Source: Gammaproteobacteria bacterium (GTDB lineage: Bacteria; Pseudomonadota; Gammaproteobacteria; GRL18). From it: a stretch of DNA of 33,484 bases. The stretch covers positions 1 to 33,484 of the forward strand of contig JALVDE010000179.1 of NCBI GenBank assembly GCA_027009375.1. Direction: 5' to 3'. The position numbers and the translations under genes are program-made. Within the stretch, counting starts at the first letter, position 1; each line of letters begins with the position of its first letter. Below the pieces are notes generated by a model. It saw only the letters and a list, made by a program, of their open reading frames with translations. It searched no databases and was not told the DNA's origin. Positions 10,692 through 22,071 of this stretch are shown one piece after another.

Positions 10692-10976
10692 ATGAATTCT
10701 TTTAAATGGATAAAATTTTTCAGCATCGGTATTGTGTTATCTTTAAGCGCCTGCAGCGATGAGCCTGAATGGGTCAGCATTTATAATGAATGTAAAGAGC
10801 AGATTCAGGCCAGTATTGATGAAATAAAACAGTCACCTGATGCTCCACAAGCCATGGGTAACATGATGCAGAGTTTCGGCATGAGTGCCTGTGAAATGAT
10901 AAAAAGCACCTGTGAACAGGATCCCAAAGGTGCCGCCTGTCAATCTATTGTTAATAGTCACAAAGAACAAAAATAA
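10692..10976 (+). CDS. Small cysteine-rich lipoprotein
   Basis: 94-residue protein with a typical lipoprotein signal: charged start, hydrophobic stretch FFSIGIVLSL and lipobox LSAC with Cys21 as the likely acylated residue. The mature part is only about 73 residues and contains four further Cys (YNECKE, MSACEM, KSTCEQ, GAACQS), consistent with two disulfide bonds in the periplasm. GGAG lies 9 bases before the ATG. I do not recognise the family. It follows radC by 75 bases on the same strand but need not be in the same transcript. Confidence 0.8.
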   Translation: MNSFKWIKFFSIGIVLSLSACSDEPEWVSIYNECKEQIQASIDEIKQSPDAPQAMGNMMQSFGMSACEMIKSTCEQDPKGAACQSIVNSHKEQK

Positions 10977-11039: not shown

Positions 11040-12143
11040 CTATTCATCCTGGTAGTAATAATCATATTTATCCAGCACCGAACTCATAAAACTCCAGGCT
11101 TCGTTATAAGACAGGCCGCTGTCATCGGGAATAATAATTTTGACATACAATTTGTCTTTATAGCGGTCTTTTAAAGCACTGAGCTTTTTATGCATAGCGG
11201 CCTCAGAAATCGTCTGGTAAGGATCATTATCTGACTCCCGGAACTGGATATGAGGTTTACCGGCCTGCTTTTCATAACGCACTTCCACCACGTACTTGCC
11301 AATCGCTGAACGGGATGGCTTGATAAGCTTGTTATACTTGTCTTCCAGCTCTTTATAATCACCCACCAGTACCGAGTGCTGTTGCTGAACTTCAGCAATC
11401 CGGCGTTCATAACGACTGATGCTGTCCTGGTATTGCTGGTTCTGCTGATTCAGTTTCAGCAATTCCTGTTCACGGTTGTGTAATTGTACCATCTGTGTCT
11501 GTAATTCCTTATCTCGTTGAGACAGGGCTATGGCTTTAACTTCCAGTTTAGTGTTAAGAGAATCCATGGTGCTTTCAAGTTGCGCCAGGCGCTGCTGAAC
11601 CTTTTGTAACTCGGTATCTCTTGCTGTAATAGTGCGTTCCAGCTTACGCTTTTGATCTTTTAAACGGGTTAAACTCTGATCCTGTTCCACAATCAGCTTA
11701 TCACGTTCCGAGGCGCTTTCTCTGGCCTGCATTAATTGCAGACGCAGCATGGACAGTTCACTTTGAGTCTGGGTCAGGCGTTCTTCCAGGGTGGCTTTTT
11801 CCTGGGATGTTTTCTGAAAGACTTCGGAGGTTCGTCGCTCTGCTTCAAGTGATTCCTGCAGTTTACGCATTATTTCCTGGCGTTTATTAAGGCTGGCTTC
11901 AAGCTCCTGGGAGGTTTTTTGCTGCGCGACCATACTGGCTTTTAAACGCTGAGATATTTTCTGCTCCACCTCAATACGGGTTTTAAGCTCATCAACCAGT
12001 TCCCAGTTCTTAACAATTAAAATACTGGTAGTGATTAAAAAAATCATCACGACTACGGTCATAATATCTGTAAAAGACGGCCAGAAAGAATCTTCCACCA
12101 GGTGCTGATGGTTCTGTCTGAGATCAATAAAGCCGTCATTCAT
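11040..12143 (-). CDS. MotB-like membrane protein with long coiled-coil stalk and ExbD-like end
   Basis: 367-residue inner-membrane protein. Residues about 20–45 (FWPSFTDIMTVVVMIFL...) form one membrane helix with the MotB/ZorB-type signature S/A-x-x-D-x-M-T, placing Asp26 where the proton-carrying Asp sits in MotB-family proteins. Residues about 48–272 (about 225) are charged, Gln-rich and heptad-like, a predicted continuous coiled coil. By MotB topology this would lie in the periplasm. The end (about 282–367) reads like a small alpha/beta domain; YVKIIIPDDSGLSYNEAW resembles the ExbD/TolR periplasmic pattern, and I see no OmpA-type peptidoglycan-binding motif. It starts 16 bases after the MotA/ExbB-like gene, so the two proteins almost certainly form one channel complex. 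What it drives is unknown. Confidence 0.82.
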   Translation of the reverse strand: MNDGFIDLRQNHQHLVEDSFWPSFTDIMTVVVMIFLITTSILIVKNWELVDELKTRIEVEQKISQRLKASMVAQQKTSQELEASLNKRQEIMRKLQESLEAERRTSEVFQKTSQEKATLEERLTQTQSELSMLRLQLMQARESASERDKLIVEQDQSLTRLKDQKRKLERTITARDTELQKVQQRLAQLESTMDSLNTKLEVKAIALSQRDKELQTQMVQLHNREQELLKLNQQNQQYQDSISRYERRIAEVQQQHSVLVGDYKELEDKYNKLIKPSRSAIGKYVVEVRYEKQAGKPHIQFRESDNDPYQTISEAAMHKKLSALKDRYKDKLYVKIIIPDDSGLSYNEAWSFMSSVLDKYDYYYQDE

Positions 12144-12159
12144 AGCAGCTTACTCACTC

Positions 12160-13110
12160 TCAGGAGGGGTTCTGATTAGAGGGATGGTGAGGGTGGTCTT
12201 CCGGCAGGCGGAAGCCCAGCCGCAGCAGTTCCTTAATTTCACTGAGGTCTTCTGACATACCGCTGACCCTGTCATCAAACTGAGAGGTGATCTCATTAAC
12301 TTTAGAACCCATTTCCAGATACTGCTGCTGGGACAACTGCATATTAGCCGCAGTATGGCGCAGAGATTTAATGAGTTCTGCCAGCTGATGCACCATATTC
12401 TCACTCTGGTGGGAGAAACGCGGCATAAGATGCTGAGTCGTCACCTGCTCAATGGCACTGAACAGGTTAGTCTGGACATCGGTCAGTTTCAGATAAAAAT
12501 AACCAAAGAACATATAACAAACGATAGCTGTTGTTGTCGTTGACAGTGCGGTAGACATACCGTGAATCACCTGCCCCATACTACTAACGCCATTATTTTC
12601 CATTAAGCTGGAAGCCCCCATCAGGGCAATCGATAATGAAATAATGGTACCGAATACCCCCGTAAGAATAAGAACATTGGAGACAAAACGAGGCAAACTC
12701 AAACGGGTACTTTCAGAAGCGACCATGGCCGCCGCAAGTGCACTTTGATTAACCGGTGCATGCTGACGGTAAATATCCTTCATGGTCGCATAGCGATGGG
12801 CAATCAGGCTTTTCTCATAAATATCCTTGACCGGATTAGCACTTTCCTTATGCAGATTAACAATAAATTTGCCCAGCGCCCTTTCCTCACGCCAGTAAAA
12901 CAATAAGGACGATACCTGTTTGGCCATACCCAGCAGGAATAAGCCGAGAATAAAGCCATTAATAAAATAACCGGTATTGGTTAACTGATTTTTAAGATAG
13001 ACATTCTGGATATAATCAAACTGAAAGTAGATCAGTACTACCAGTAAAAGAGACAGAATAATCAGACGCAGAAGGATATTAAAGCTATAGCTGGATTTAA
13101 AGTGTATCAT
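12160..13110 (-). CDS. MotA/TolQ/ExbB-family proton channel protein
   Basis: 316-residue polytopic membrane protein. Likely membrane helices lie at about 11–30, 48–70, 145–166 and 184–208. The third contains LTGVFGTIISLSIAL and the fourth GMSTALSTTTTAIV, matching the conserved G-x-x-G-T and S/T-rich helices that line the channel in MotA, TolQ and ExbB. Between helices 2 and 3 lies a cytoplasmic region of about 75 residues, and the C-terminal tail (about 210–316) is helical and polar. With the downstream MotB-like gene it makes a two-component ion-driven unit. Flagellar (motAB), Tol-Pal and TonB partners are absent from the neighbourhood. The nearest upstream gene is an mlaC homologue, 133 bases away. 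Confidence 0.87.
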   Translation of the reverse strand: MIHFKSSYSFNILLRLIILSLLLVVLIYFQFDYIQNVYLKNQLTNTGYFINGFILGLFLLGMAKQVSSLLFYWREERALGKFIVNLHKESANPVKDIYEKSLIAHRYATMKDIYRQHAPVNQSALAAAMVASESTRLSLPRFVSNVLILTGVFGTIISLSIALMGASSLMENNGVSSMGQVIHGMSTALSTTTTAIVCYMFFGYFYLKLTDVQTNLFSAIEQVTTQHLMPRFSHQSENMVHQLAELIKSLRHTAANMQLSQQQYLEMGSKVNEITSQFDDRVSGMSEDLSEIKELLRLGFRLPEDHPHHPSNQNPS

Positions 13111-13185
13111 AAACAGATAATAAACTAATATAGATCAGCTTAGAATTAGGGTTTATACCTATGAACTGTACCTATAAGAAGGTAA

Positions 13186-13204
13186 CGTGGGCAGGATGCC
13201 CACG
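13186..13204. repeat. Palindromic repeat CGTGGGCA-GGA-TGCCCACG
   Basis: A perfect inverted repeat with 8-base arms and a 3-base spacer lies between the mlaC-like and MotA-like genes. No T-run follows on either strand, so it is not a typical terminator, although it could stall transcription after mlaC. The sequence is much more G/C-rich than its surroundings and resembles REP/MITE-like interspersed repeats of environmental proteobacteria. There is a single copy in this window. Confidence 0.5.
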
Positions 13205-13243
13205 CTCCGGTACAGTGTTATAAATAAAGGCTACAAATAAAAG

Positions 13244-13945
13244 CTATTTAAAAACTTCATTATTCTGCCGTTGACGGCGGATCTGTTCTTCAAAAAAGTG
13301 TCTATAATAAAACAGTGCACTGACACCATTGGCCCGTACATCCACTACTTTCCAGCCGTTTCTGGTTTTCAGAAACTTAAAGTCCGCATGCACAACCGTG
13401 CCGTCTTCCTGCAGAATCCTGGCTGACGCCATAGCTTCATTCTCACTGGTACGACGAGAGCGGAAATTTTCTACCACGGGCGGATAATTACGGAAATTAC
13501 TTAATTTCTGTACAAAGGTAGTAATAAACAGTTCCTTGAAAATCTGGGTAAACTGCTTTTGCTGTTGCGGATTCATGGTTTTGTAATAACGTCCGGCTAC
13601 CCAGCGGGCCATATATTCAAAATCAAAATGCGGGGCAATTTCCCGGTTAAGAAAGTCAGTGATCTGCTCCAGCGAAGCCGGCTGGGGCGTGGACAGAAAA
13701 TCAATCACCTTATTTATAGACTCTTCAAGTAATACGACCGGTGACTTACTGGTAACTACCGGCACCGGCAGGCTTTTCGGACGATAATGCTGAGCATAAT
13801 ACTTACCTGGATTCATGGGATACTGATAAGTCGCTGCCTCCTCACCACGTAAATCATGCACAATAACCCGCGCCTGCACTGCCACTGTATTCGCCAGCAA
13901 TACCAGTGCTGCGCCCCCTAAAAGCGATGTTTTTAATAATTTCAT
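13244..13945 (-). CDS. mlaC: MlaC/Ttg2D-family periplasmic phospholipid-binding protein
   Basis: Soluble periplasmic carrier of the family that moves phospholipids between the outer-membrane MlaA complex and the inner-membrane MlaFEDB transporter. I place the start at ATG 13945 because it has a strong AAGGAAGG Shine-Dalgarno site at the right distance and opens a proper signal peptide (MKLLKTSLLGGAALVLLAN...VQA); the frame is open further upstream, but that extension is unlikely. The mature protein shows the MlaC hallmarks FDFEYMARWVAGRYYKTM, QKQFTQIFKELF and a late NGWKVVDVRANGVS. Other mla genes are not adjacent, unlike the usual mlaFEDCB cluster, so this is an orphan copy. The gene symbol is by family only. 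Confidence 0.82.
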   Translation of the reverse strand: MKLLKTSLLGGAALVLLANTVAVQARVIVHDLRGEEAATYQYPMNPGKYYAQHYRPKSLPVPVVTSKSPVVLLEESINKVIDFLSTPQPASLEQITDFLNREIAPHFDFEYMARWVAGRYYKTMNPQQQKQFTQIFKELFITTFVQKLSNFRNYPPVVENFRSRRTSENEAMASARILQEDGTVVHADFKFLKTRNGWKVVDVRANGVSALFYYRHFFEEQIRRQRQNNEVFK

Positions 13946-14274
13946 TGACCTTCCTTTCTGGTTTTTTAATATTTTTATTTTTGTCTTAAGATAAACCAAA
14001 AACAGAGATTGCACCATAGTTATTTTGTTAATTTAATAAAGACTATTCTGACTGTTTGAGCATAACTATCCACAGATAGCGGATTTTTTAATTTTTCCAA
14101 TAAAAAACTTGCCTCTTAGGGCAATATTGCGTAAAATCTCGCCTCTTATTCGCGCAAGTCGTTACAATTTCAACGGCCTGTGTTGCAAAAAGACCAGAAA
14201 GTAAAATATTTTGTCTTTTTAGTTGGTCTTTTTAATTGAAAGTTAAGATTTAAGCGATTTATTGGAGAGCATCA
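13946..14274. other. Intergenic region between mlaC-like gene and rpmB
   Basis: 329 bases without a credible gene. It should hold the divergent promoters of the mlaC-like gene (minus) and rpmB–rpmG (plus). A TACAAT hexamer at 14163–14168 is a possible -10 for rpmB, but I find no good -35 partner. The approximately 14-base motif beginning TGCCTCTTA and CGCCTCTTA occurs twice in near-copy around 14110 and 14140. The inverted repeat at 14187–14233 is listed separately. Confidence 0.4.
14187..14233 (+). promoter_or_regulatory. Long-loop inverted repeat in the rpmB leader
   Basis: AAAAAGACCA (14187–14196) is a perfect inverted match of TGGTCTTTTT (14224–14233), separated by 27 bases. A nearer GTCTTTTT copy at 14213–14220 can pair with the same left arm, so two mutually exclusive stems are possible; AAAATATTTT sits in the loop. 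It ends 41 bases before the rpmB ATG. It may be an autoregulatory leader for the ribosomal proteins or an operator. The stem is A/T-rich, so stability is modest. Confidence 0.3.
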
Positions 14275-17788: not shown

Positions 17789-18883
17789 ATGGACAACGAA
17801 GTTCTTATTGAAGTCAGTCATCTGTCCCGGTTTTATCCGGGTAAACATGGTATTGAAGAACGCCATGATCATGTTGTGGCGGTCGATAATATCAGCTTTA
17901 CTTTACAGCGCGGCGAAATACTGGGCTTTCTGGGACCCAACGGTGCCGGCAAATCCACTACCATGAAAATGCTGACCGGCAATCTGGCACCCAGCGAAGG
18001 CCGTATTAAAATCGGCGGATTTGATTTAATGGATGATCCTGTGGCGGCCAAGGCACTGGTCGGCTACCTGCCCGATACTCCGCCTTTATACAAGGAACTT
18101 ACCGTTGATGAATACCTGTTTTACTGTGCCCGCCTGAACCGCGTGGCCAGAAAAGGCCTGAAGCGTGCCGTACAACACAGTAAGGAACGCTGTGGCCTGA
18201 CCGAACACGGTAAACGGGTGATCAATAATTTATCCAAGGGCTATCAGCAGCGGGTCGGCATTGCCCAAGCTATTATTCATGCACCGGATATTGTTATTCT
18301 CGATGAACCAACGGTGGGTCTGGATCCTATCCAGATGATTGAAATCCGCAAACTGATCCGGGAGCTGGGGGAAAACCACAGCGTTATGCTGTCCAGCCAT
18401 ATTCTGCCGGAAATTCAGACTGTGTGTGATAATGTGCAGATCATTAACCAGGGCAGACTGGTCTTTAATGCCCCGATAGAACAGCTTAACCAGCAGATGA
18501 ACACTCAGGTATTACGTATGCGCTGCAGCAGGACAGTGGATAGGAAGCAACTGGAAAAGCTGGACGGTATTCAGGCAATTGAACAGGATGGAGAAAGCTG
18601 GCTGATTGAAGGCCGGACAGAAAGCACGGACAGTATTCCGGATACTGTCGGCATACCCGACAGCCCCCCCAACAACACAGTACAATTATCACAGCAGCTC
18701 GTTGAACTGTCCTGCCAAAATCACTGGGGGCTGTATGAGCTCAGCCCTGTCAGACGCTCACTGGAAGATATATTTATGAGCCTGACCTGTACTGAGCCGG
18801 AGCTGACAGAACTCAGCAATAATAAGAGTAATGATCATAAGGGTACTGAACAGAAAGCCAGGCAGGGAACAGACCATGATTAA
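17789..18883 (+). CDS. ABC transporter ATPase, Gld-like system
   Basis: 364-residue ATPase of an ABC-2 type exporter, related to GldA and to CcmA-type ATPases. Visible motifs: Walker A GPNGAGKST (residues 49–57), Q-loop region near GYLPDTPPLYKEL, signature LSKGYQQRVG, Walker B IVILDEPTVGLDP and switch His in MLSSHILPE. The C-terminal approximately 120 residues follow the ATPase core, with a polar, Pro/Asp-rich linker (around PDTVGIPDSPPNN) and a Glu/Thr/Lys-rich tail. An AGGA lies too far upstream to be an ideal ribosome site. Its stop overlaps the start of the permease gene by eight bases. It is the first gene of a four-gene operon (ATPase, permease, GldG-like, DUF4340). Confidence 0.92.
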   Translation: MDNEVLIEVSHLSRFYPGKHGIEERHDHVVAVDNISFTLQRGEILGFLGPNGAGKSTTMKMLTGNLAPSEGRIKIGGFDLMDDPVAAKALVGYLPDTPPLYKELTVDEYLFYCARLNRVARKGLKRAVQHSKERCGLTEHGKRVINNLSKGYQQRVGIAQAIIHAPDIVILDEPTVGLDPIQMIEIRKLIRELGENHSVMLSSHILPEIQTVCDNVQIINQGRLVFNAPIEQLNQQMNTQVLRMRCSRTVDRKQLEKLDGIQAIEQDGESWLIEGRTESTDSIPDTVGIPDSPPNNTVQLSQQLVELSCQNHWGLYELSPVRRSLEDIFMSLTCTEPELTELSNNKSNDHKGTEQKARQGTDHD

Positions 18884-19637
18884 AATCATTGCACTGCGTG
18901 AACTAAAAAGCCTGTTCCTGTCTCCTCTGGCCTGGACCATGCTGGCCATTACCCAGTTTATTTTATGTTACCAGTTCCTGGCACAACTGGAGACTTACCT
19001 GCAGATACAGTCCAAACTTTCCGTTCTGGAAAATTCTCCGGGCATTACGGATCTGGTTATTGCTCCCCTGCTGGGCGGTGCGGCCATTGTACTGCTGCTG
19101 ATCATTCCTCTGCTGACCATGCGTTCTATCAGTGAGGAACAGAAAAATCAGACCCTGCCTTTACTGTTCAGTGCACCAGTATCCATGTCCCAGATTATTC
19201 TGGGTAAATACCTGGGTATTCTTGGCTTTCTGCTGATTTTAATTGCCATGATCAGCCTGATGCCTTTATCTCTGTTACTGGGTGCCAGCATTGATCTGGG
19301 ACAAATGTCAGCGGCACTCCTGGGACTGTGCCTGATAGTGGCCGCTTTTACCGCGGCCGGTATTTATATTTCTACTCTGACCCGTCAGCCGGCTATTGCG
19401 GCAGTGGGCAGTTTTGGTTTATTGCTGTTTTTATGGGTTATCAACTGGGCCGGCACCAGCGCCGATACCAGTATTGAAGGGCAGAATATTCTGGCCTGGT
19501 TTTCTTTACTTAATCATTTTGAACCCCTGCTTAAAGGTGTGTTTTCCACGGCAGATGTTGTTTATTATCTGCTGTTTATCTGGTTATTTCTGGTCATGAG
19601 CATCCGCCGTCTGGACCGACTGCGTCTGCCGCATTAA
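18876..19637 (+). CDS. ABC-2 type permease, GldF-like
   Basis: 253-residue inner-membrane permease with about six hydrophobic segments. I choose ATG 18876, which follows GGCAGGGAAC and begins MIKIIALRELKSLFLSPLAW, the usual GldF-type N-terminus; the open frame extends upstream but only within the ATPase tail. Recognisable are LLIIPLLTMRSISEEQ, the conserved cytoplasmic coupling segment, and NQTLPLLFSAPVSMSQIILGKY. It overlaps the ATPase stop by eight bases. In Bacteroidetes GldAFG supports gliding; in Gammaproteobacteria this cassette is common but its cargo is unknown. Confidence 0.88.
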   Translation: MIKIIALRELKSLFLSPLAWTMLAITQFILCYQFLAQLETYLQIQSKLSVLENSPGITDLVIAPLLGGAAIVLLLIIPLLTMRSISEEQKNQTLPLLFSAPVSMSQIILGKYLGILGFLLILIAMISLMPLSLLLGASIDLGQMSAALLGLCLIVAAFTAAGIYISTLTRQPAIAAVGSFGLLLFLWVINWAGTSADTSIEGQNILAWFSLLNHFEPLLKGVFSTADVVYYLLFIWLFLVMSIRRLDRLRLPH

Positions 19638-19651
19638 ACAGGTTAACCAAT

Positions 19652-21148
19652 ATGCAGATCACCCGCCAATCTACCCGCAATCTGAAACTGCAGCGCTGGC
19701 TGTTCAAGCTGCTGTTTCTTGCCATGCTCGGCCTGCTGGCTTACCTGAGTAATCTATATGTTTATCAGGCAGACTGGACCGTAAACGGCCAGAACTCACT
19801 GAATGAAGTCAGCATACAGTTACTGCAGACACTGGACGGCCCGGTAGAGCTGGTTTCCTATACCAGTAATCCACGTATCCGCAAATCAGTACAGGAACTG
19901 GTGCAGCGTTATCAGCGCTATAAACCCGATATGAGTCTCAGATTTGTGGATCCCAATGCCGATCCGGAAAGTATTCGGGCACTGAATATCAGCGTAGACG
20001 GGGAAATGATTATTCAATATCAGGGCCGCAGTGAAAACCTGACTGAATTATCCGAACAGAAGCTCACCAATACCCTGCACCGTCTGGTTCGCTCCAGAGT
20101 CCGAAAACTGGTCTTTATCGAAGGCCATGGTGAACGCAGCCCGGTTCGTCAGGCCAATTTTGATTTATCGACCTTTGCCAGGCATCTTAAAAAACAGGGC
20201 TTTACCCTGGAAACGCTTAACCTGGCCCGCAGTATGCGGATACCGGAAAATATTTCGGTACTGGTCATTGCCGGTCCACAGGCGGCTTTTTTACCCGGCG
20301 AAGTACGCTTGCTTATTGATTATGTTAAAGCCGGGGGTAATCTTCTGTGGCTGGGTGAACCGCTGAATATTGAAAAGAATTTCCCCATGCACGGCCTGCT
20401 GCCGCTGTCTGAATTACTGGGTATTGAGTTTCTGGATGGTGTCGTGGTCGATCCCACCACGGAACGATACGGTATTACCCGCCCGGATTATGCCATTATA
20501 ACGGAATACCCTGAACACCCTATTAACCAGGATTTTTCCACCGTCACCCTGTTCCCACAGGCGGCTGGAATTGAACGTCTGCCGGCATTTATAGACGATG
20601 TACGCAATGCAGATGAGACCGGTGCCGATATACCCTCTGACCAGGAAGATGACAGCTCGACTTCCCTGAATTCCAATTTTACTATGCTGCCTTTTCTGGT
20701 GACTGTAGAACGCAGCTGGATTGAAACCTCTCCTATCCGTGATCAGGTACAGTATAGTGACTTACTGGATATCAGAGGGTCGGTGACCATCGGCATGATT
20801 TTAACCCGGCCGCTGAATAATGGCAGTGATGCCTCACAACAGGACGAACATGAACCCGCTAATGAAGTCCCAGGCCGGGAACAGCGCATAATTGTACTGG
20901 GTGATGGTGATTTTCTATCCAATACTTTTCTTGGTAATGCCGGCAACCTGACCCTGGGTCTGAATATTATGAACTGGCTCAGCCATGATGACCATTTTAT
21001 TGCCATCCCGACCCAGATAAAAAATGATATTATTCTGGATCTGTCCACTGAGCAGTTATCCCTGCTGGGCAGTTTTTTCCTGTTAGTGGTGCCGGGAATA
21101 CTGGTTATTAGCGGTACCCTGATCTGGTTCAGAAGGCGCAGACGCTAA
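19652..21148 (+). CDS. GldG-like auxiliary component of ABC system
   Basis: 498-residue protein with one N-terminal (about 17–37) and one C-terminal (about 468–490) membrane segment bracketing a large, probably periplasmic, region; the C-terminus ends in a run of Arg. The core matches the GldG/ABC-type uncharacterised auxiliary component family: NSLNEVSIQLLQTLDGPVE, VFIEGHGERSP, an LVIAGPQAAFLPGEVRLL segment with a GGNLLWLGEP follow-on, and the late VLGDGDFLSNTFLGNAGNL. Two acidic, low-complexity inserts (around DDVRNADETGADIPSDQEDD and NNGSDASQQDEHEPANE) break the core and look lineage-specific. The next gene starts within the stop codon (TAATG), so translation is coupled. Confidence 0.87.
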   Translation: MQITRQSTRNLKLQRWLFKLLFLAMLGLLAYLSNLYVYQADWTVNGQNSLNEVSIQLLQTLDGPVELVSYTSNPRIRKSVQELVQRYQRYKPDMSLRFVDPNADPESIRALNISVDGEMIIQYQGRSENLTELSEQKLTNTLHRLVRSRVRKLVFIEGHGERSPVRQANFDLSTFARHLKKQGFTLETLNLARSMRIPENISVLVIAGPQAAFLPGEVRLLIDYVKAGGNLLWLGEPLNIEKNFPMHGLLPLSELLGIEFLDGVVVDPTTERYGITRPDYAIITEYPEHPINQDFSTVTLFPQAAGIERLPAFIDDVRNADETGADIPSDQEDDSSTSLNSNFTMLPFLVTVERSWIETSPIRDQVQYSDLLDIRGSVTIGMILTRPLNNGSDASQQDEHEPANEVPGREQRIIVLGDGDFLSNTFLGNAGNLTLGLNIMNWLSHDDHFIAIPTQIKNDIILDLSTEQLSLLGSFFLLVVPGILVISGTLIWFRRRRR

Positions 21149-22071
21149 TGAATAATGATGCACGTAATAATGCCCGGCTGGCTGTTATCGTTCTGTTGCT
21201 GGCTTTAATTGCCTGGTATAAGCCGGGGCTGAAACAATATCAGTATCAATATCTGAGTTCACTTAATCCTGAACAGGTACAGACCATTGTGATAGAACGC
21301 CAGGGTATTGAGTCGGTGCGCCTGACTAAACAGGGACAGCACTGGATGATGCAGAGTCCTTATCCATTACCGGCCAACCCCCTGCGTGTTAAGACTGTAC
21401 TGGCACTGGCGACCAAACGCAGTTATTCCAGTTTTGATGTGCCGGACAGTGAGCTAAAAAAATATGCCCTGGACAAACCAAAGCTCAGCGTCTGGCTGGA
21501 TAATAACCGTTTTGACCTGGGCAGCGAAGCACCTCTGAACGGCCAGCGTTACGCCATGAATATCCAGGACAATATTCACAATGGCAAAAACACTATCCAT
21601 CTGATTAATGGAGCCGTTTATTATCAGTTGCGGGCACCGGTTGACAGCTTTATTTCATCCTCATTATTGCCGCCGGATGCAGACCTTGAGCAAATTCAAT
21701 GGGCTGCTTACTCACTGGTACTTAAAAACGGCCAGTGGCAACTTAAAACCAGCCGGGAAAATGCCGGTATACAACCTGACAGCGTTGTCCAGTTAATTCA
21801 TAACTGGCAGACAATACTGGCCTCCAGAGTAGAAACCCGTCTTAAAGTCGATCCTGACACCCTGAGTACCCAAACGGCTGCAAAGACCATCACAATACGC
21901 TATAAACTGAACAACAGGGAACAGACTATTTCTTACCATATTATTCAGGAAGACAGTCAGATTAAATTATTACGTCAGGATCTGTCTATTGCCTGGTGGG
22001 TAACGCCGCAGCAGCTAAAACGTCTGACTGAGTTTATTCCAGTCACCAAAACCACAAAATCATCACAATAA
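21148..22071 (+). CDS. DUF4340 domain protein, Gld-like operon
   Basis: 307-residue protein with a single N-terminal membrane anchor (about residues 8–24) and a periplasmic body. DUF4340 features include LNPEQVQTIVIER near the start, ALATKRSYSSFDVPDSELKKYALDKP and LGSEAPLNGQRYAM. It overlaps the preceding stop by one base (TAATG), the normal architecture of this operon in other Gammaproteobacteria. The body is repetitive beta-rich. Function unknown; by context it works with the ABC proteins, perhaps recognising an envelope substrate. No terminator is evident downstream. Confidence 0.86.
   Translation: MNNDARNNARLAVIVLLLALIAWYKPGLKQYQYQYLSSLNPEQVQTIVIERQGIESVRLTKQGQHWMMQSPYPLPANPLRVKTVLALATKRSYSSFDVPDSELKKYALDKPKLSVWLDNNRFDLGSEAPLNGQRYAMNIQDNIHNGKNTIHLINGAVYYQLRAPVDSFISSSLLPPDADLEQIQWAAYSLVLKNGQWQLKTSRENAGIQPDSVVQLIHNWQTILASRVETRLKVDPDTLSTQTAAKTITIRYKLNNREQTISYHIIQEDSQIKLLRQDLSIAWWVTPQQLKRLTEFIPVTKTTKSSQ

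Follow-up and report, generated by a model that had tools for sequence, protein, structure and literature searches.

A conserved two-gene family of putative ion motors whose long coiled-coil stalk changes length mainly in steps of seven residues

The window analysed here, a 33,484-nucleotide stretch of gammaproteobacterial DNA taken as a whole, carries two adjacent genes, here called A and B, that belong to a conserved two-gene family. Judged by sequence, the pair is a member of the MotA/TolQ/ExbB - MotB/TolR/ExbD ion-motor superfamily, within which it would stand as a variant with a coiled-coil rod. The evidence for the rod includes an evolutionary pattern, namely that its length changes almost exclusively by whole heptads. 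Somewhat favoured, at a probability of about 0.55, is a reading in which A and B build an ion motor of A5B2 type whose shaft is rigid, lies in the periplasm and leads to a target in the outer envelope.

The gene pair, its proteins and its distribution

Genes A and B lie on the minus strand in that order, 16 bases apart (Table 1). The first-pass annotation, made from the sequence without database searches, had given the two reading frames (316 and 367 aa), their spacing and the membrane aspartate Asp26 correctly, and its description of a motor-type pair is also borne out: A lies above the Pfam MotA_ExbB cut-off, and B possesses one N-terminal membrane helix with an invariant Asp. Specifically, the A protein scores 24.0 bits against a curated cut-off of 22.9 (E 3.5e-5), and 23 of 25 aligned A relatives hit this family with E <= 0.01, which places A, on sequence, as a distant but above-cutoff member of the MotA/TolQ/ExbB proteins.

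Table 1. Features of the A-B locus, with positions numbered along the window.
Feature	Position	Strand	Basis
Gene A, putative MotA/TolQ/ExbB-family channel protein, 316 aa	12160..13110	minus	PF01618 above cut-off, 25-row alignment, hydropathy/loop charge
GFRL motif, A residues 299-302, end of predicted cytoplasmic C-tail	12205..12216	minus	comparison of A proteins
Gene B, MotB-type axle protein, 367 aa	11040..12143	minus	always with A in sampled class genomes
B single transmembrane helix, residues 24-45	12009..12074	minus	sequence; AF2 helix from residue 24
Asp26 codon, within FWPSFTD, presumed ion-binding residue	12066..12068	minus	invariant in alignments
B stalk, residues 48-276, heptad coiled coil without proline or cysteine	11316..12002	minus	period 3.5, length changes
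B head, residues 277-367, small alpha/beta domain matching no known family	11043..11315	minus	AF2 and failed assignments
MlaC-like gene (periplasmic lipid carrier), immediately upstream of A	13244..14017	minus	PF05494, E 2.6e-32
Terminator-like hairpin between MlaC-like gene and A	13184..13206	minus	sequence

Hydropathy and alignment divide A into three parts. The N-terminal part contains two hydrophobic segments and then a K/R-rich loop of about 70 residues; in the core, a pore helix (GVFGTIISLS) is connected to a Thr-rich second one by a loop that lacks K and R; and a helical, predicted cytoplasmic C-tail extends about 105 residues past the last pore helix to end in GFRLP. The tail motif reads GFRL in 110 of 111 A proteins and GFRI in the other, an invariant ending that had gone unremarked in the first-pass annotation. 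When the A profile was compared with PDB sequences, coiled-coil noise from the C-tail was all that was returned.

The B protein opens with an acidic tail of 20 residues and one membrane helix, and continues as a stalk of 229 residues that leads to a head of roughly 90. Its FWPSFTD motif, with Asp26, is invariant in alignments of 29 and of 31 B proteins. The same conserved head terminates B proteins across the family, with a Y-x-K-L-x-(R/K)-P-x-R entry followed by LY(V/I)K, SGL(S/T)Y and YDYY among its conserved elements. AF2 models residues 270-367 as a confident small alpha/beta domain (pLDDT 91.8, pTM 0.82) in the order b-b-b-a-b-a, which resembles ExbD minus its last strand or strands, and from this predicted order a very distant relation between the head and ExbD is possible.

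Before these comparisons, the end of B had been described as ExbD/TolR-like and as taking the place of an OmpA domain. The second half of that description stands, in that neither OmpA nor any other peptidoglycan-binding domain was matched in B or found among the families listed for 62 heads. The first half does not: PF02472 (ExbD/TolR) gave any match at all in only five of the 62 heads (best E 0.095), the head profile aligned to ExbD/TolR periplasmic domains with an hhalign probability of 0.4%, and the AF2 model had no counterpart among PDB folds at E <= 0.001, ExbD/TolR being absent from its top 50. On these three comparisons, an ExbD/TolR identity was rejected as unproven. The head also lacked any Pfam assignment, and the head profile alone matched no PDB sequence. 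Among other candidates, RNase-H-like and ribosomal matches of the full-length B model in the PDB were discarded as chance, and matches of B to SMC, RNase Y, Rad50, JetC and LmuB as generic coiled-coil similarity.

The two-gene unit, which it had been proposed to seek in other genomes, proved to be conserved. Gene A is present in all 24 genomes of the window's family, in 50 of 323 sampled class genomes at E < 1e-40 (spread across many families), and in 19 more genomes, which belong to two families of the phylum not placed by the search in the window's class. A total of 315 matching places were found in GTDB genomes, and the taxa concerned include Candidatus Thiodiazotropha, Sedimenticola, a Solemya gill symbiont, Chromatiaceae, Thiohalomonas and Methylococcales. 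The head domain was detected in 35 of 232 class genomes, every one of which also carries A, and a plasmid search with A returned no match. Presence in 24/24 family genomes favours a housekeeping role and disfavours a mobile defence system.

A stalk that changes length mostly by heptads

The coiled-coil stalk, put at about 225 residues by the first-pass annotation, rests on firmer ground than was foreseen there. Over the 229 residues of the window's stalk, hydrophobicity shows a single sharp peak at period 3.50 with an amplitude of 0.855, compared with no more than 0.14 at any of eight further periods sampled from 3.3 to 3.8. None of 20,000 shuffled versions reached that amplitude, and the width of the peak is the smallest that 229 coherent residues permit. 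Across 113 stalks, which range from 150 to 549 residues, the spectra peak between 3.495 and 3.53. Proline is absent from all 22,060 residues of these stalks, against 3.2% in the heads.

The evolutionary pattern, which had been missed, is that stalk length is quantised. The distance from the Asp to the head falls into one class modulo 7 in 106 of 111 distinct B proteins, at 15 lengths from 172 to 487. When length changes are inferred on the A tree, at least 35 are needed, and 30 of the 35 are exact multiples of seven (binomial tail at 1/7, p ~7e-21), a value to be read with the reconstruction in mind, since it applies parsimony to a FastTree phylogeny and the changes are not wholly independent of one another. 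By distinct lengths alone, 15 of 20 lie in one mod-7 class (p 1.6e-9). The remaining five changes leave a remainder of 1 (two cases) or 4 (three cases), and insertions of +1 and +4 are the known skips and stutters of coiled coils. The two stalks whose spectra peak at 3.52 or above, in L075 and L237, are the two +1 cases.

Heptad periodicity is retained over the whole of the window's stalk and across evolution, and the conclusion that B stalks zip into one stiff, in-register coiled coil is strongly supported. A hinge at residues 112-118 is possible, as the AF2 model of a single B chain breaks its helix there at low confidence. A preference for multiples of seven was already known in signalling helices (PMC13269768), and in the B family the rule extends to rods of 22 to 82 nm. 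The heptad rule speaks for continuous zipping and not for torque, because any obligate coiled coil purges non-heptad changes. A shaft or rigid reach is favoured over a flexible tether, because flagellar plug-linkers are flexible, whereas the stalk accepts no proline and hardly any length change out of phase.

Computed at 0.1485 nm per residue, the rod would measure about 34 nm in the window, about 22 nm in the shortest stalk and about 82 nm in the longest. An ordinary periplasm is 20-25 nm wide; the shortest rod comes near that width, as would be expected if the rod has to extend to the outer envelope, and the longest rods are too long for any ordinary periplasm. Lengths differ several-fold even within one genus, where B has about 315 aa in L271, 617 aa in L260 and 701 aa in L272 (with stalks of up to 549 residues), and for this reason the rod can be no simple ruler of the periplasm. 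The earlier suggestion that the stalk spans the periplasm is thus retained as a possible span, while the equation of length with span is weakened. For the longest rods, either the periplasm is wide, the rod lies obliquely, or reach matters as a lower limit only.

Comparison with known ion motors

The window's own genome encodes tolQRA, exbBD and two motAB pairs, all separate from A-B, and because these exist separately in the same genome A-B is not a diverged motAB or tolQR. That outcome, a diverged version of either with a known partner, had been named in the first-pass annotation as one that would refute its reading; no such partner was recognised in the lineages examined.

Each of the closest known motors shares some features with A-B and lacks others. 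MotAB and PomAB stators are alike in gene adjacency, channel family, an Asp in the B helix and two extra N-terminal A segments. The plug and linker of MotB are long, glycine-rich and flexible (PMC12505986), whereas in A-B the heptad coiled coil comes directly after the B membrane helix, so that a rigid, proline-free coiled coil replaces the glycine-rich plug-linker, and the OmpA domain is missing. TolQR and ExbBD share with A-B the channel family and have a similar strand/helix order in the B periplasmic domain. In contrast, ExbD and TolR have about 140 aa and no long rod, the head of B matches them neither in sequence nor in fold, and no tolA or tonB lies beside A-B. GldLM, the gliding motor of Bacteroidota, is comparable in having a long periplasmic B part; the GldM shaft is built from folded periplasmic domains in series, whereas the A-B rod is a coiled coil and B has no GldM family match. 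For GldLM, this long periplasmic part has been proposed as a shaft spanning the periplasm (PMC9389320). Finally, ZorAB, the anti-phage motor of Zorya, belongs to the same superfamily, and PADLOC gave ZorA2 for A and ZorB1 for B as best, weak matches (E ~2e-6). ZorB has a presumed peptidoglycan-binding domain and ZorA a long extension (PMC11890865). Unlike Zorya, A-B bears its long rod on B and a different head at its end; the long cytoplasmic extension of ZorA is not found in A, which has just 316 aa; and A-B is stably inherited, with no ZorC/D/E seen alongside it.

The neighbours of A-B in the window are housekeeping genes, and no universal partner gene accompanies the pair across the lineages examined. 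Genes for glycerate kinase, a ferritin-like protein, dtd and his functions, among others, were considered as partners and rejected, as each recurs solely within related lineages. The initial remark that no flagellar, Tol, Ton or Zorya partners are nearby holds well beyond the window: none was recognised beside A-B in the lineages examined, the neighbourhood tables contain no tolA, tolB, pal or tonB near the pair, and no recurrent large partner genes of the ZorC/ZorD/ZorE kind occur in its neighbourhoods. Two other features of the window may be recorded. A small lipoprotein-like ORF with an LSAC lipobox (10692-10976) is convergent with B and has no homologue beside B in the other clustered loci, and a set that looks like GldAFG (17789-22071), made up of genes for an ABC ATPase, a permease and GldG-like and DUF4340-like proteins, lies a few kilobases from A-B.

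Further motor-like pairs were encountered along the way. L006 (own genome, contig C154) encodes a 268-aa MotA-like protein, then a B that combines a membrane Asp with a coiled coil and a stretch resembling von Willebrand A, and adjoins a formylglycine-enzyme-like gene. A second uncharacterised A-B pair is found in other gammaproteobacteria (L209, L210, L211, L213, L216, L217 and L220), with an A of about 330-360 aa and a B of 256-280 aa that ends near PxPVFTLPxG plus a KMLxL tail; in two cases it sits beside an apparent hemE. In L212 and L218 a four-gene set codes for a short MotA-like protein of 227-246 aa, a B of 200-208 aa that has a membrane Asp, a membrane protein of 171-172 aa and a lipoprotein-like one of 233-234 aa.

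Proposed mechanism, rival readings and significance

In the favoured reading, A and B would form an inner-membrane ion motor of the MotAB/TolQR/ExbBD/ZorAB superfamily, presumably as A5B2. By homology, ions would pass between B Asp26 and the conserved Thr-rich A pore helices. Two B helices would exit the membrane and zip into one coiled coil, about 34 nm long here and 22-82 nm family-wide, that would hold the head domains far from the inner membrane, and a target in the outer periplasm, either peptidoglycan or the outer membrane, could then receive the work of the motor or brace it. On the inside, the GFR(L/I) end of the A tail may provide a second conserved contact. The device as a whole would be a stably inherited, housekeeping one and not a mobile defence system; its 5:2 assembly, its ion flow and the outside location of the stalk are steps that we infer. 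A fuller version, in which a proton- or sodium-driven motor turns or pulls the head at the outer envelope by means of a rigid dimeric coiled-coil drive shaft across the periplasm, joined in some lineages by an MlaC-type carrier, is unlikely to be right in every particular.

Alternatively, B may be an anchor and not a drive shaft, which we regard as somewhat unlikely. The head would be held in place by peptidoglycan or a protein of the outer membrane, with the coil as a rigid tether, and the A ring would turn, doing its work in the cytoplasm or membrane via the GFR(L/I) tail, as MotB anchors MotA. The presence of that motif in 111/111 A proteins and of one conserved terminal head on the B proteins would suit such an arrangement, as would the precedents of MotB, which is peptidoglycan-anchored, and ZorB with its presumed binding domain (PMC9389320, PMC11890865). 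However, no OmpA-like or other peptidoglycan-binding domain is present in B, no conserved cytoplasmic partner gene adjoins A-B, and the proline-free, heptad-locked rod is unlike the flexible, glycine-rich plug-linker of MotB (PMC12505986).

A lipid-transport motor is a more doubtful proposal, and it follows from the one gene family noticed adjoining A-B in clearly different surroundings, an MlaC-like carrier that the first-pass annotation had overlooked although it is present next to A. This gene sits immediately upstream of A both in the window's family and in G161. In a third lineage it is on the downstream side of B, directly in G243 and one gene off in its relatives. The copy beside A-B is the sole MlaC found in the own assembly (91% complete), whose mlaF-mlaE-mlaD-mlaB operon beside murA (L146 4978-7450, contig C251) lacks mlaC. 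On this proposal, A-B would power or position an MlaC-type carrier that moves phospholipids between the membranes, with the head docking the carrier or its outer-membrane receptor. In most lineages, however, no MlaC adjoins A-B; the linked MlaCs are not monophyletic, leaving a single co-inherited clade unsupported; and MlaC matches occur in 266 of 323 class genomes, mostly without A-B. In the window, the terminator-like hairpin parts the two genes, which means that A may start its own transcript. The link also emerged from a survey of all neighbours and could have arisen by chance, and the completeness of the assembly bears on the count of one. The adjacency is best treated as a lead to a possible functional partner.

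An inverted topology is very improbable. With its stalk in the cytoplasm, B would be a long sensing arm like the ZorA extension, and the problem of fitting 80-nm rods into an ordinary periplasm would be removed. The weak ZorA2/ZorB1 matches and the very long stalks of one genus are in keeping with this, as is the acidic N-tail of B (net charge -2.3); the charge round the B membrane helix alone is no proof of an outside stalk. On the other side, cysteine is absent from the stalks (0/22,060 residues) and heads (0/10,957 residues) of 113 B proteins, as expected outside the cytoplasm, although this is not proof. In ExbD and MotB the Asp lies near the N-terminal end of the membrane helix and the C-termini are outside; B Asp26 is placed likewise, and the A loop charges fit the usual MotA/ExbB orientation. 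The B stalk is therefore very probably periplasmic. Finally, superfamily membership and the weak Zorya profile matches could point to a Zorya defence system or to a flagellar, Tol or Ton motor that has diverged; such a reading has a negligible chance of being correct given the separate tolQRA, exbBD and motAB genes, a B without an OmpA or ExbD domain, the lack of recognised partner genes and the stable inheritance within the family.

Whether torque or force is transferred across the periplasm by the B proteins of 5:2 ion motors has been reviewed as an open question, and motor torque has been linked to what a coiled coil can bear (PMC9389320). Searches of open-access papers brought up no description of such an A-B pair, and the main text of a 2025 survey of 379 homologues (PMC12505986) does not contain the word "coiled". 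The pair thus appears undescribed. If the fuller drive-shaft version is true, A-B would be, to our knowledge, the first ion motor to carry work across the envelope by a single coiled coil. Taken as a whole, the family, which is retained by many sulfur-oxidising bacteria and symbionts as well as by other bacteria, constitutes a natural length experiment in which whole heptads come and go freely and other changes almost never survive, and it is this variation in heptad steps that makes the question of force transfer testable.
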